This document shows positions 23,083 through 27,986 of a stretch of 64,000 nt of DNA, one piece after another. The notes under the pieces are model-generated. The model was not told the origin of the DNA. It was given only the letters and a program-made list of their open reading frames with translations, and did not search any database. The position numbers and the translations under genes are program-made. Origin of the DNA: Bacteroidota bacterium (GTDB lineage Bacteria; Bacteroidota; Bacteroidia; Chitinophagales; Chitinophagaceae); contig JAPLEH010000022.1 in the NCBI GenBank assembly GCA_026391455.1, forward strand, positions 1 through 64,000. The letters run 5' to 3'. Position 1 is the first letter of the stretch, and each line of letters opens with the position of its first letter.

Positions 23083-25056
23083 TTATTTCATGTATACGAT
23101 TGTACAACTATATGGTTTCATGGTGATGGAACCGTTCAACGGAATATCCTGCATCCATTGATTGTTCTGAATGGCCACCTTCCAGATTCCCTTGCCAGGT
23201 GATATTATTCTTGATTGTCCGGTACCATTAAAATACACGTTGATCCTTTTCCAGCTATCACCTGTCTTTTTACCATCGAGTGTATAAGCGACCAATCCTT
23301 CGCCTGTAGTCTCATCAAAATGCAGATATCTGGCAATTGATTTCGCAAGAGTAAGCCGGAAAGCCGGATGTGCTTTCCTGAGTTGAATCAGTCCTTTTAC
23401 ATATTCAAATACATCGTAGTGCTGTGTCTTCAGATCCCAATCAATGGCATTGATGCTGTCAGCCGATTCAAAAGAATTCTCCACTCCTTTTTTTGTCCGT
23501 AAAAATTCGGTACCGGCGTGTATAAAGCTGATACCCTGCGACGTGAGTACGATGGATAATGCCAGCTTGTGCATATTCGTTCTTTCTTCAAGGGTGGCAT
23601 CCGGCGCTGAAATACGGAGTTTATCCCATAATACGTGGTTATCATGACATTCACAATAACTGATCGTTTGCCAGGGCTCTTTGGCGTAAGGCTTTTTGGA
23701 ATAATTGACTTTTGCATAATCCACCTGCGGATGTTTACAAGCCGCCACTACGCCAAAACGGATGCTTTGTTCCATACCCGGTTTACCGCTGGCAAATCCC
23801 CTGTCTTTATGATCGAATACGCTCCCTTTGATCCCATCCCGAATATCATCGCTGAATACCGCAATACGGTCCAATTTGGAAACGTTTGCTTTAATAGCCC
23901 GCAATGAATCAGGCAATGGCGATGCCCCGGCCGTCCACCCTTCCCCATAAATCAGGATATCTGGCTTTATCTTATGCAGTTCTTTCGTAATAAGATTCAT
24001 CGTTTCTATATCATGTATACCCATCAGATCTACCCGGAACCCGTCGATATGATATTCCTTTACCCAAAAGCGCATCGACTCCAGCATAAACTTCCGGAAC
24101 ATGGCCCGCTCACTGGCTGTTTCATTGCCGCAAGCAGATGCGTTAGAGAATTTACCTTCTTTGTTTTGCCTGTAATAATATCCGGGCACCAGTTGGTTGA
24201 AATAGGAAGAATCCGTAAGCGCTGTATGGTTATACACCACATCCATCACCACCCGCAAACCATGCCGGTGAAATTTATTTACCAGTTCTTTGAATTCACG
24301 GATTCGTGTAATTCCATCATAGGCATTCGTTGCATATGAGCCTTCCGGCACGTTATAGTTGAGCGGGTCATATCCCCAATTGTATTTCAGATCCGGTTTG
24401 GTTTCATCTACCGAGTTATAATCAAATACGGGCAACAGGTGTACATGCGTAACGCCCAGTTCTTTAAGATGGCTGAGGCCTGTACTGTGTCCGGCAGTAT
24501 TTCGTGTATTCAGCTCCGTTAGTCCGATGAATTTGCCTTTAGCCCTGATGCCCGAACTGGCCGATATGCTTGCATCCCGTACATGGAGTTCATATATAAT
24601 GGCATCTGTTTTATGTTGAAACGGTGGGCTTTTGTCTTCGCTCCAGCCCGGTGGATTGGTGAGTGAAAGGTCGGCGATCATCCCTCTTTTTCCATTGATG
24701 CCGGTCAGTTTCACATATGGATCGGCTACGGCAGCCGACCATTTACCCGTATTCATGGTTCGAAAGGTATAAAACTTACCGCTGAAATTTCCAGCAATTA
24801 CCGACAGCCATGTACCCGATACAGACTGTTTCATTTCATAGGTGGCAAAAGGATCACCTCCCATGCCTGCTTCATATAAAAGCAGTTGTGCCCTTTCGGC
24901 ATAGGGCGCCCAGATACGGAAACGACAACTGGTATCACTGTATACCAAACCGAGGTCATCCCCTTTGTATTCCGGATACCGGTCGTACAAGCCCTCCTGC
25001 CCTTTCCCTGAAAAAAATTGTGCGAGGAAACTAAACAGCATCATCATACGCTTCAT
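23083..25056 (-). CDS. pulA: type I pullulanase (GH13)
   Basis: It hydrolyses alpha-1,6 branch links of pullulan, amylopectin or glycogen. It is 657 residues with a probable signal peptide (MKRMMMLFSFLAQFFSGKGQ), so it acts in the periplasm or outside. An N-terminal CBM48-like beta domain (about 35-130) includes FRIWAPYAERAQLLLY. The GH13 barrel has the pullulanase signature YNWGYDP, then VVMDVVYNHT, GFRVDLMG (nucleophile Asp), LIYGEGW (acid Glu) and CECHDNHVLWDK (third carboxylate). The C-terminal beta domain ends in SCTIVYMK. No other glycan genes are adjacent. The 845-bp repeat array lies directly upstream. Confidence 0.94.
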   Translation of the reverse strand: MKRMMMLFSFLAQFFSGKGQEGLYDRYPEYKGDDLGLVYSDTSCRFRIWAPYAERAQLLLYEAGMGGDPFATYEMKQSVSGTWLSVIAGNFSGKFYTFRTMNTGKWSAAVADPYVKLTGINGKRGMIADLSLTNPPGWSEDKSPPFQHKTDAIIYELHVRDASISASSGIRAKGKFIGLTELNTRNTAGHSTGLSHLKELGVTHVHLLPVFDYNSVDETKPDLKYNWGYDPLNYNVPEGSYATNAYDGITRIREFKELVNKFHRHGLRVVMDVVYNHTALTDSSYFNQLVPGYYYRQNKEGKFSNASACGNETASERAMFRKFMLESMRFWVKEYHIDGFRVDLMGIHDIETMNLITKELHKIKPDILIYGEGWTAGASPLPDSLRAIKANVSKLDRIAVFSDDIRDGIKGSVFDHKDRGFASGKPGMEQSIRFGVVAACKHPQVDYAKVNYSKKPYAKEPWQTISYCECHDNHVLWDKLRISAPDATLEERTNMHKLALSIVLTSQGISFIHAGTEFLRTKKGVENSFESADSINAIDWDLKTQHYDVFEYVKGLIQLRKAHPAFRLTLAKSIARYLHFDETTGEGLVAYTLDGKKTGDSWKRINVYFNGTGQSRIISPGKGIWKVAIQNNQWMQDIPLNGSITMKPYSCTIVYMK

Positions 25057-25901
25057 GAATAAATCGATTATATCCTAAATATAATGAATTGCTCGCACCT
25101 TTATTTTCAATGGCCTGAAGGCCATTGCTATGCATGAATTGGGGAAGGTGCGGGATTGATTTCGGGAATACTTGTTTTGCTTATAGCCATACTGCAAACT
25201 ACGCTAGCCATCAACCATTCCGCAGGTTAATGCATAGCAATAGGTTTCAAACTATTGTCCAATGATAAACGGCGATGCGGAACCCTTTAATTTGGGGCGG
25301 TGCGTGATTGAATTTGGTAGTACCCGTATTTCGACAGCACTAATGAAGCATGCTTATCAATCAACCTTTCCGCAGTTTAATGCATAGCAATAGGTTTCAA
25401 CCTATTTAAAAAAAAAACGGCGATACAGAACGATTTCTTTTCAATGGCATGAAGGCCATTGCTAGGCATGAAATTGCGGCGATGCGGGATTGAATATGTT
25501 ATTTCCTGTATTTCGACAGCACTAATGAAGCTTGCTTATCAATCAACCTTCAATGGCCTGAAGGCCATTGCTAGGCATGAATTGGGGGCGGTGCGTGATT
25601 GAATTTGGTAGTACCTGTATTTCGACAGCACTAATAAAGCATGCTGATCAATCAACCTTTCCGCAGTTTAATGCATAGCAATAGGTTTCAACCTATTGTC
25701 CAATGATAAACGGCGATGCGGAACCCTTTAATTTGGGGCGGTGCGGAATTGAATTTGGTAATACCTGTATTTCGACAGCAAAATGAAGCATGCTGATCAA
25801 TCAACCTTTCCGCAGATTAATGCATAGCAATAGGTTTCAACCTATTGCCAAAAAAATGCAATAACATGAAACACCGATAAATCAATCAAGTACCGGGAAA
25901 T
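25057..25901. repeat. 845-bp non-coding array of REP-like hairpins in imperfect tandem units
   Basis: Seven hairpins of two classes. Class A, AATGGCC-TGAA-GGCCATT followed by GCTA(T/G)GCATG, occurs at 25109-25126, 25443-25460 (one mismatch) and 25552-25569. Class B, in the opposite orientation, AATAGGT-TTCA-ACCTATT preceded by TTAATGCATAGC, occurs at 25239-25256 (one mismatch), 25389-25406, 25680-25697 and 25829-25846. Read from the other strand, class B is AATAGGT-TGAA-ACCTATT-GCTATGCATTAA, so both share loop and tail while the stems differ by paired changes. Between hairpins are diverged copies of a spacer containing TTTCGACAGCACTAATGAAG and ATCAATCAACC. Unit lengths are about 109-150 bp. 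Confidence 0.85.
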
Positions 25902-27374
25902 TTATTGAATCGTTGCCCCCACCAATTCCAAACCACGGGCTGCCAGCAAAAAGATTTTGCCGTCTTTATAGCCGGAAGCCGTTGAAGGAATGAAAAAGTA
26001 TTCCCCCCTTTTACCGCCTATACGCTGATCGGTAATTACCGATTCTGATTTGAATTTGCCATCCATACCAATGGTATAAATCAGGTTGATCCAGCGGGTG
26101 CCAAACTCCACAAATTGTCTCCTTCCATCATGGCGTGACCATTCATCGAGGAAAAGCAATTGAATTTCGTTGCCTTTCAACCAGGTAAAAGAACCGAGGA
26201 AGCGGCCACCGTCGCCGGCAGATTTCATATCTCTTTCGGCTTTATAATTCCATTGTAAGGCTCCGGCCGCATCCATTTTGGTATAATGAATATTGCCGCT
26301 TTTATAATCGTAGTTATATTCAAAAGGTGTCCCGGGCTTGGCTGTGGAATTGGTGATTAACGACTCCCCCACCAGCAATAATCCATTGTCAGGCATACGC
26401 AGCAATTGTGTGGCGCGAATCGTAGCCGACCGTACCATATTCGATTTTGAAGCGAGGAGATCACCGTTAGCAGCTTTTACATCAAGGAAAAATGTTCCAT
26501 CGGGTGTTTCCACATTGATGCCTACTTTTTTATCCATATAAAAATAGCCGGCAATTTGCAGGTCACCAGCAGTGGTGAAAAGATTCTTCCAGGTTGAGAT
26601 GGTAAAACCGTTTTCGAGCTCAATTTTCTTTTCTATCACTTGTGCGCCATTGTTACCGAATGTAAACACCGAAAACTGATCGAATGCTTTTTTAACGGCA
26701 ATGCGTTTCAGAATAAATGCGACTCCTTCATTATTGACAAATATTTCGTTTTTGGGTGCTTTTGCCGATTCATATGGGAACGTGTATTCTTTCTTCCAAA
26801 CTTGTTTAAAGGATTGATCGAAAACAGTAATCACACATTTTTCCATTCCTTCTTTCTCGTATGGCAATTCACTGATCACGGCTACTTTGGTTCCATCCGG
26901 ACTTACATTCACCCCGAAATTACCTGAGTTGGCTGCTGACTCCGCATTGATAGTCAGCAAGGATTGCTTTTTCTGACGTTTTCCGGTCACATCGAAGGGA
27001 TAGTACCAGAGATAGCTCATTTTACTACCGGATGCTTTGCTGAATTCGGACTTGAACATGACCAGTTTATCCTTCAATGGGAAAATACCTTCATAGATAT
27101 TGGCATCGCCCATTTCTAATGTCTTATCCAGTGTATTGGAGCCGATTGGTTTGCGGGCCGCATCATAGGCATCCAGTTGCAGATCGTACATGACGGGCGC
27201 CATCAAACGAAACCGTTTTTGCAACACATAATAATGATCCCCTACTGTGAAAGTGGAGAACTCTGCTTCCGGCACATTCTGTACATTCCGGGGTTCAATG
27301 AATTCGATGGTTTGTGAACGAAGAAACAGGACTTGCATCAATGCAAGACAGAAGAGAATACCTTTTGTTTTCAT
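25902..27374 (-). CDS. secreted protein of unknown function (490 aa)
   Basis: Not recognised. A signal peptide (MKTKGILFCLALMQVLFLRSQ) is followed by about 470 residues rich in short beta strands with repeated hydrophobic-aromatic patterns (GDHYYVLQKRFRL, KVAVISELPYEKEG, EIQLLFLDEWSRHDGRRQFV), suggestive of a beta-propeller. No motif defines the class. It begins 3 bp after the 202-residue gene, so they form a two-gene operon, and its 3' side faces the hairpin repeat array. Confidence 0.65.
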   Translation of the reverse strand: MKTKGILFCLALMQVLFLRSQTIEFIEPRNVQNVPEAEFSTFTVGDHYYVLQKRFRLMAPVMYDLQLDAYDAARKPIGSNTLDKTLEMGDANIYEGIFPLKDKLVMFKSEFSKASGSKMSYLWYYPFDVTGKRQKKQSLLTINAESAANSGNFGVNVSPDGTKVAVISELPYEKEGMEKCVITVFDQSFKQVWKKEYTFPYESAKAPKNEIFVNNEGVAFILKRIAVKKAFDQFSVFTFGNNGAQVIEKKIELENGFTISTWKNLFTTAGDLQIAGYFYMDKKVGINVETPDGTFFLDVKAANGDLLASKSNMVRSATIRATQLLRMPDNGLLLVGESLITNSTAKPGTPFEYNYDYKSGNIHYTKMDAAGALQWNYKAERDMKSAGDGGRFLGSFTWLKGNEIQLLFLDEWSRHDGRRQFVEFGTRWINLIYTIGMDGKFKSESVITDQRIGGKRGEYFFIPSTASGYKDGKIFLLAARGLELVGATIQ

Positions 27375-27377
27375 GGT

Positions 27378-27986
27378 TTATTTTTTATGTTTGGCGGCAT
27401 ACCAATCGTTGTACTCAGCAATAATGGCCTGGAGGTTCAGCATGCCATAGCCTTTTTCTTTACCGGTTACTTTAGCAGATAGTTCAGGATAATCCGCCAG
27501 GTAACCACCCAGCTTCTTTGCAAAGGCCAGCCCAAAATAGGTAATGGAAATGGGTTTGCTGTTCTCCGGATCATGCGGTTTGTGATAAACAGGCTCCGGT
27601 GTTGCATTTCCATCTTCCGAATAAAACACATATTCCGTGATGGCACCGTCTTTGGTGACGAGATTGAACCGAAGGGGTTTAGCCATCAAACCACCACTGT
27701 AGTTGATCGAACGGTACAATTTATCTGCCACTTTATAACTCTTGATATCTTCGGGTTTGAACTCAGCGGAAGGCTTTCGGTCCATTTCATTGGTATAAAA
27801 GAAACATTTTTTCTGATTACCGGCCTGTGTGCCATGCTGAAAATAGCCATACACGGTATCATTACTGTTTTTTACATAATAGCCAGGGTATATTTTACCC
27901 ACCTGATACACCTGCCCGGTCCAATCCTGTGCGGAGGACTGCAATCCCATGGCAAAAAGACAAACAAGCAAACTGATTCGGATCAT
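27378..27986 (-). CDS. secreted protein of unknown function (202 aa)
   Basis: Signal peptide MIRISLLVCLFAMGLQSSAQ, then a domain starting GYYVKNSNDTVYGYFQHG, a pattern common in uncharacterised Bacteroidota envelope proteins, followed by alternating strands and a helical C-terminus. It is the first gene of an operon with the 490-residue secreted protein (3-bp gap). A TACATTTG -7-like element lies 43-50 bp upstream. Function unknown. Confidence 0.65.
   Translation of the reverse strand: MIRISLLVCLFAMGLQSSAQDWTGQVYQVGKIYPGYYVKNSNDTVYGYFQHGTQAGNQKKCFFYTNEMDRKPSAEFKPEDIKSYKVADKLYRSINYSGGLMAKPLRFNLVTKDGAITEYVFYSEDGNATPEPVYHKPHDPENSKPISITYFGLAFAKKLGGYLADYPELSAKVTGKEKGYGMLNLQAIIAEYNDWYAAKHKK

Follow-up and report, generated by a model that had tools for sequence, protein, structure and literature searches.

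REP, BIME and REPIN elements go with the TnpA_REP (RAYT) proteins, which make up subclasses 2.2, 2.4, 2.5, 2.7 and 2.8 of the TnpA_Y1 transposases in two published accounts (Quentin 2018, PMC6006769; Corneloup 2021, PMC8266576). The second of these describes IS608, ISDra2 and the TnpA_REP of E. coli as acting on single-stranded hairpins. In the 2018 survey, subclass 1.2 is listed with REP 'no'; the automatic search there accepted only candidates with a GT[AG]G foot, and inspection by hand is reported for subclasses 2.6 and 3. Here, we describe an intergenic hairpin array which is probably a REPIN/BIME-like cluster of non-autonomous elements of a Y1 (HuH) transposase bearing the subclass 1.2 signature; the likeliest partner is encoded on contig C32 of the same genome and would have mobilised them. 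This reading draws on the observed association of the hairpins with the gene, their structure and covariation, the layout of the units, and the joint presence or absence of gene and hairpins. A literature search, with preprints and most subscription papers outside its reach, returned no published account of this hairpin family.

The array fills exactly the gap between two minus-strand ORFs (23083-25056 and 25902-27374) of the window, by which we mean the whole 64-kb stretch of DNA analysed. The preliminary description, made from sequence, placed seven hairpins of two stem classes in opposite orientations at 25057-25901, and this array is real: all seven are present, three of class A on the plus strand and four of class B on the minus strand. 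The stems, initially read as 7 bp, proved to be 8 bp long, each hairpin consisting of 8 bp, TGAA and 8 bp followed by a CTATGCAT or CTAGGCAT tail. The arms are CAATGGCC/GGCCATTG in class A and CAATAGGT/ACCTATTG in class B, with one mismatched pair in three of the seven copies (25238, 25388 and 25442). A common loop and tail had also been proposed; the TGAA loop is indeed shared, but the tail reads GCTATGCAT five times and, in two class A copies, GCTAGGCAT. All five exact copies of GCTATGCAT in the window lie inside the array, and matches with up to one mismatch are not enriched across the window (19 found, 17.7 expected). The feet (5' of the hairpin, with the tail read the other way) are ATAG in five copies and CTAG in two. 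Folded as ssDNA, six hairpins reach -3.8 to -7.3 kcal/mol (the last of them with a one-base offset), and the copy at 25238 is weak at -1.7 kcal/mol. Spacers are repeated in tandem, as had been noticed, with a 118-nt copy at 97% identity and a 130-nt copy at 95%, such that the array comprises two complete A-spacer-inverted-B units and partial tandem copies (Table 1). At E<=0.001, neither of two minus-strand ORFs beside the array (25902-27374 and 27378-27986) had a match in Pfam or NCBIfam. Among 20 pulA loci compared in order to trace the orthologous locus, two, our own and that of G010, have the neighbour gene inside the flank; hairpins of this kind are absent from the G010 gap, which is weak evidence given flanks about 70% identical.

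We built a covariance model, R1, from hairpins beside transposase relatives in other genomes, with no copy from the source genome. It was trained on 75 of 98 elements, at most two per stem, leaving out L097 and 22 elements of L182-L202. All training elements had been picked as perfect 8-bp stems, and pair counts in R1-type elements are therefore circular; tests on sites defined by loop and tail are non-circular. Applied to the window, R1 gave eight matches, of which the top seven are exactly the seven hairpins (E 2.7e-6 to 0.021) and the eighth is the first hairpin on the opposite strand. Since a model built with no source-genome copies ranks all seven on top, the window hairpins are not a product of chance.

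Table 1. Hairpins and composite units of the array, in window coordinates, with strand and supporting evidence.
Feature	Positions	Strand	Evidence
Hairpin array between genes, made of tandem units with two ends, of which some have lost one	25057..25901	.	Sequence, repeats, R1 matches
Class A hairpin CAATGGCC-TGAA-GGCCATTG, then tail CTATGCAT	25108..25127	+	R1 32.8 bits; -7.3 kcal/mol as ssDNA
Class B hairpin with a single mismatch (CAATAGTT/ACCTATTG), tail CTATGCAT	25238..25257	-	R1 20.1 bits; weak fold, -1.7 kcal/mol
Class B hairpin without outermost pair (AAATAGGT/ACCTATTG), tail CTATGCAT	25388..25407	-	R1 18.4 bits
Class A hairpin with a single mismatch (CAATGGCA/GGCCATTG), tail CTAGGCAT	25442..25461	+	R1 18.1 bits
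Class A hairpin, tail CTAGGCAT	25551..25570	+	R1 30.2 bits
Class B hairpin CAATAGGT-TGAA-ACCTATTG, tail CTATGCAT	25679..25698	-	R1 30.7 bits
Class B hairpin CAATAGGT-TGAA-ACCTATTG, tail CTATGCAT	25828..25847	-	R1 30.7 bits
Complete unit of A hairpin, spacer and inverted B hairpin with inward-pointing tails	25108..25257	.	Sequence, R1; relatives with equal layout
Second complete unit, A-spacer-inverted-B	25551..25698	.	Sequence, repeats, R1

Further copies are found across the source genome, where R1 identifies 37 sites on 11 contigs and TGAANNNNATTGCTATGCAT with up to two mismatches has 27 matches against none for a reversed control. The pattern TGAA-N8-CTATGCAT, in which the stem letters are free, has 13 exact matches, pairing at 8/8 positions in nine, 7/8 in three and 6/8 in one. 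Loci were available for 17 of its 47 one-mismatch sites; with L334 and L338, which are close to contig ends and were misread, set aside, the remaining 15 comprise seven sites with 7-8 pairs and eight with 0-4. Stems vary by locus, both with the TGAA loop (CCATGTGT, CCATCCCA, CTTTGGGA, ACATGGGT) and with a TAAA loop (CCATTCCA, GTGTGGAA, CCGGTACA, CCAACACA), and compensated one-pair variants occur inside single arrays: CTCCGGGT/CTCCGGGC on C2, CCCGGAGT/CCCGGGGT on C62, CCTCCGGC/CCTCTGGC on C60 and CTTTGGGA/CTTTGGGC on C68. None of 50 source-genome hairpins overlaps an ORF of at least 120 aa. Stem mismatches in this genome fall in the arm away from the tail in ten cases and in the other arm in one, with one both ways and one unresolved; a general polarity of stem mutations was rejected on the count from other genomes, 17 against 15 (116 unresolved).

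The elements thus neither occur only once in this genome nor carry stems that fail to covary, the two outcomes on which the preliminary description had said its reading would fall. Ordinary local duplication, in which one hairpin unit was copied in tandem with no transposase, would agree with the tandem copies in the array, which are 95-97% identical. Loop, stem length and tail, however, recur unchanged alongside unrelated stems on many contigs and in many genera, and because of these copies elsewhere duplication is refuted as a full explanation; it accounts for the growth of the array, not its origin, and as an alternative to a transposase it is scarcely credible.

The source genome has four PF01797 (Y1 transposase) genes, on contigs C32, C52, C9 and C19, of which the first three carry a Y...Q..HH signature. 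The product of the C32 gene, P0001, is a protein of 147 aa with YIRNQETHH and DHVH motifs, and the genome's Y...Q..HH genes are 33-49% identical to it. Five hairpins of the window family lie 3' of the C32 gene, among them two whose tails read CTATACAT and CTATGCAT; the preliminary description had suggested looking for a transposase gene flanked by the same hairpin, and here it is found with the same tail. The C52 gene has CCCGGGGT hairpins in its flanks, but their tails differ, and for this reason the CTATGCAT tail assigns the window array to C32, to whose gene it most likely belongs on this sequence comparison. Directly upstream of the third Y...Q..HH gene, at about 1920-2100 of the C9 locus L003, there are 24-bp tandem hairpins of another type (GCTCC-TAAC/TATC-GGAGC). 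P0001 scores 32 bits against the NCBI REP-associated tyrosine transposase model, below its cut-off of 80, but passes the IS200 TnpA model with 75.1 bits (cut-off 55), and its profile matches the IS608 and ISDra2 TnpA proteins in the PDB. Given these two scores and the subclass 1.2 signature, the C32 transposase is not, as judged from its sequence, a canonical RAYT. The C19 gene is the only one in the source genome to pass the REP-associated model (NF047646, 107.7 bits), and another repeat family lies on both sides of it (locus L004, about 960-1340 and 1970-2130). A PADLOC search for anti-phage defence had no match for two proteins, and a defence reading was dropped.

Relatives of the transposase were taken as the best 80 of 554 loci from a scan of named genomes, and a survey of the order matched the gene at E<=1e-35 in 74 of 396 genomes. 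Near-duplicate loci L094, L132 and L176 are included in the 113-locus hairpin, loop-and-tail, foot and 88-pair counts given here, and were removed from the all-pairs stem comparison and from the mismatch-polarity, tandem-iteration and Mantel counts. At 99 of 113 loci, at least one TRAA-loop hairpin is present no more than 1 kb from the gene; the remaining 14 have none in that distance. Of the 279 perfect 4-nt-loop hairpins of at least 7 bp within 1 kb of the gene at these 113 loci, the stem length is exactly 8 bp in 185, and in 241 the loop is T[A/G]AA or its complement. This amounts to 241 in 217 kb near the gene versus eight in 319 kb beyond 2.5 kb. Orientation at the gene ends is mixed, TRAA and TTYA counting 83 and 42 downstream, and 56 and 60 upstream. 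Outside the source genome, 198 distinct elements have 92 stems, and their commonest feet are ATTG (84), ATAG (31), CTTG (16), TTTG (8) and CTAG (7), GTAG being absent from the twelve commonest. The hallmarks of the family are the 8-bp stem, the T[A/G]AA loop and a CWATTCA-type tail (CTATGCAT in the window array). Compensation of stem changes, which had been claimed from the two window classes, extends to sites found by loop and tail alone: near the gene there are 141, with 7-8 of 8 stem positions paired in 123, and far from the gene there are two, with 3 and 5 pairs. Because these sites were defined without reference to their stems, and the free-stem sites of the source genome pair at 6-8 of 8, the covariation is genuine.

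Comparison of G043 with G009, 88% identical over 5 kb, reveals one hairpin (loop TTAA) in G043 only and another that has decayed in G009. Tandem iterations of the 3' arm and tail follow full hairpins in 23 of 372 cases at 19 loci (including L064, L096, L110, L115, L121, L128, L149, L160, L172 and L177), and the mirror image, a 5' arm copy upstream, was seen three times; slippage or strand transfer at the tail may underlie these iterations.

The opposite orientations of the two window classes follow a rule that is also evident in the relatives. Within a locus, hairpins of the same orientation are alike (in 234 of 335 pairs the tail-side arms show no more than one base difference), whereas those of opposite orientation are unlike (298 of 382 pairs differ at three or more positions). 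Among the 88 neighbour pairs with tails inward, the stems differ at three or more positions in 67 and at none or one in 10. The window classes fit this pattern, being the left and right ends of a unit multiplied in tandem.

The type of hairpin tracks transposase phylogeny. A quick tree built from 131 proteins separates clade A (106 rows) from clade B (25 rows) with SH-aLRT support of 99, and TRAA hairpins accompany 92 of 106 clade A loci and none of 25 in clade B. Hairpins with 3-nt loops are found at 15 of 106 clade A loci (16 in all) and 15 of 25 in clade B (49 in all). The latter group includes CAACCCC-gaa-GGGGTTG hairpins adjoining L087, L091 and other clade B genes, and two clade B loci also lie beside CCCCGGGT-tggc-ACCCGGGG with tail CTATGAA. 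All 106 clade A proteins have H-x-H and Y...Q..HH. Across 83 loci, the tails diverge further as the proteins do (Mantel r 0.62, with none of 2000 permutations as high), and stem divergence rises early and is then flat (r 0.40); common descent alone could be the source of the tail-protein correlation. R1 hairpins are present in 15 of 42 genomes of the genus, where gene and hairpins are both found in 12, the gene only in five, hairpins only in three and neither in 22. Across the order, with only 18 candidates scored per genome and the gene called at E<=1e-35, the corresponding numbers are 39, 35, 40 and 282 (Fisher p 8e-13, uncontrolled for genome size and number of candidates scored). Four genomes of genus g141 (G296, G352, G364 and G374) have up to 11 R1 matches each with no gene match at E<=1e-35; these hairpins are either served by another gene or relics.

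The C32 gene lies between umuD and umuC. The order umuD-tnpA-umuC on one strand, with hairpins in the gaps, recurs at 17 of 139 loci: L002 (the C32 locus of the source genome), L064, L065, L093, L094, L096-L099, L105, L131, L175-L178, L185 and L186. In a survey of the family, 94 of 195 genomes have a umuC relative and 77 of these have umuD directly upstream (17, in which umuD was not found, were set aside). The transposase gene separates the two in seven of the 77 loci, and hairpins are found in the umuD-umuC gap in six of the seven with tnpA versus none of the 70 without it. At matching positions, CCCTGGGC/GCCCAGGG of L064 corresponds to CCCCGGGC/GCCCGGGG of L065, a compensated change. The hairpin before umuC in the same two loci has the loop TGAA in one and TTCA in the other, as if its centre had been inverted. 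At L237 and L238 a hairpin begins in the 3' end of umuD, and the stop codon of that gene, TGA or TAA, lies in the TRAA loop. The distance correlation between tnpA and umuC over 18 loci is weak (r 0.39, 64 of 5000 permutations as high; r 0.31 and 223 of 5000 minus two outliers), that between umuC and umuD being 0.56, and both vertical descent of tnpA in umuDC and repeated insertion are compatible with it.

These gaps bear on two other explanations. The hairpins might be RNA-level elements, such as terminators or other structured RNA, that lie near transposase genes only through a common intergenic location; they are indeed intergenic with short paired stems, and a loop that doubles as a stop codon would suit such a role. 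Against this, neither reading has a T-run after the stem (one side is the CWATTCA tail; the other, seen on the TRAA strand, is rich in T and hence rich in A on the opposite one), Rfam has nothing near gathering score in 24500-26500 (one sub-threshold chance match), and the hairpins crowd beside the gene and are absent from the 70 gene-free umuD-umuC gaps. We regard an RNA-level origin as highly improbable. A somewhat better case, though still an unlikely one, can be made that the hairpins represent the termini of an ordinary IS200/IS605-type insertion sequence consisting of gene and ends, with the window array as a miniature derivative. The model score and structural matches of P0001 agree with this idea, as does the joint gain or loss of gene and hairpins between umuD and umuC, which is seen within one genus where G410 is occupied and G414 empty with flanks 90-94% identical. 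Several near-identical full copies per genome, however, would be expected of such elements, and copy number is instead low: 62 of the 74 gene-bearing genomes of the order have a single match at E<=1e-35, and the source genome's own genes are as divergent as described above. Neighbouring hairpins are moreover often inverted with unlike stems, and gene-free arrays are common.

We favour a REPIN/BIME-like cluster, in which the hairpins are probably substrates for a small single-strand DNA transposase. The transposase would bind hairpins exposed on single strands, either on the lagging strand or during repair, and recognition would depend on loop, foot and stem length rather than on stem sequence. 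Cleavage near the foot and strand transfer would then move or copy two-ended units, and arrays would expand through tandem duplication. Stems could drift yet stay paired either if only foldable copies remain substrates or if hairpin-templated repair restores pairing. More speculatively, and with appreciably less confidence, this may be a REP system addressed by shape, in which one transposase lineage reads the 8-bp stem length, the T[A/G]AA loop and a short foot, leaving the sequence of the stem unconstrained, such that a single genome can contain many different stems as substrates side by side. In some Chitinophagaceae, the umuDC position might on this tentative view couple hairpin processing to DNA damage, and a link of the transposase to the SOS response could follow from it. 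The family spans many Bacteroidota and records labelled Acidobacteria and Ignavibacteria, and would give a cognate hairpin to a subclass listed without one in the 2018 survey (PMC6006769). The fact that stems vary while pairing is kept makes it a natural covariation experiment on the reading of folded ssDNA by HuH enzymes, in which shape versus sequence as the address becomes directly testable.

The preliminary description likened the array to REP/BIME elements with a RAYT, and much of this comparison stands. In both systems, a low-copy HuH Y1 gene is flanked by short palindromes in intergenic DNA, these form inverted pairs whose tails point inward, the hairpin has a tetranucleotide foot on its 5' side, and one genome carries several types. 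The REPtron-like layout of a Y1 gene flanked by the repeat is seen in the C32 gene with its array and at 99 of 113 loci; the multiple intergenic copies expected of a REP are represented by the 37 R1 sites; and inverted BIME/REPIN pairs by the two full units in the window and the 88 neighbour pairs. Layout, genome copies, covariation and the Y1 gene were thus borne out, but the transposase is not a canonical RAYT and the hairpin lacks a GT[AG]G foot: the foot is mostly ATTG, ATAG, CTTG or CTAG, the stem is fixed at 8 bp with a T[A/G]AA loop and a sequence that varies by locus, and the protein is nearer IS200 TnpA. With TnpA_Y1 subclass 1.2 the family shares Y...Q..HH, a WQ motif, a length of about 147 aa, low copy number and a mostly Bacteroidota distribution, and clade A would be placed there by signature motifs alone. 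It differs in that hairpins lie beside most clade A genes, against the REP 'no' of PMC6006769, and in that the DH[IV]H motif given there occurs in 38 of 106 clade A proteins, DHCH being commoner (49). IS608 and ISDra2 of the IS200/IS605 group provide the closest TnpA proteins of known structure by sequence profile and likewise have hairpins near the gene ends, whereas here the gene copies are few and divergent, the hairpins form inverted pairs, and many hairpin arrays stand apart from any gene.
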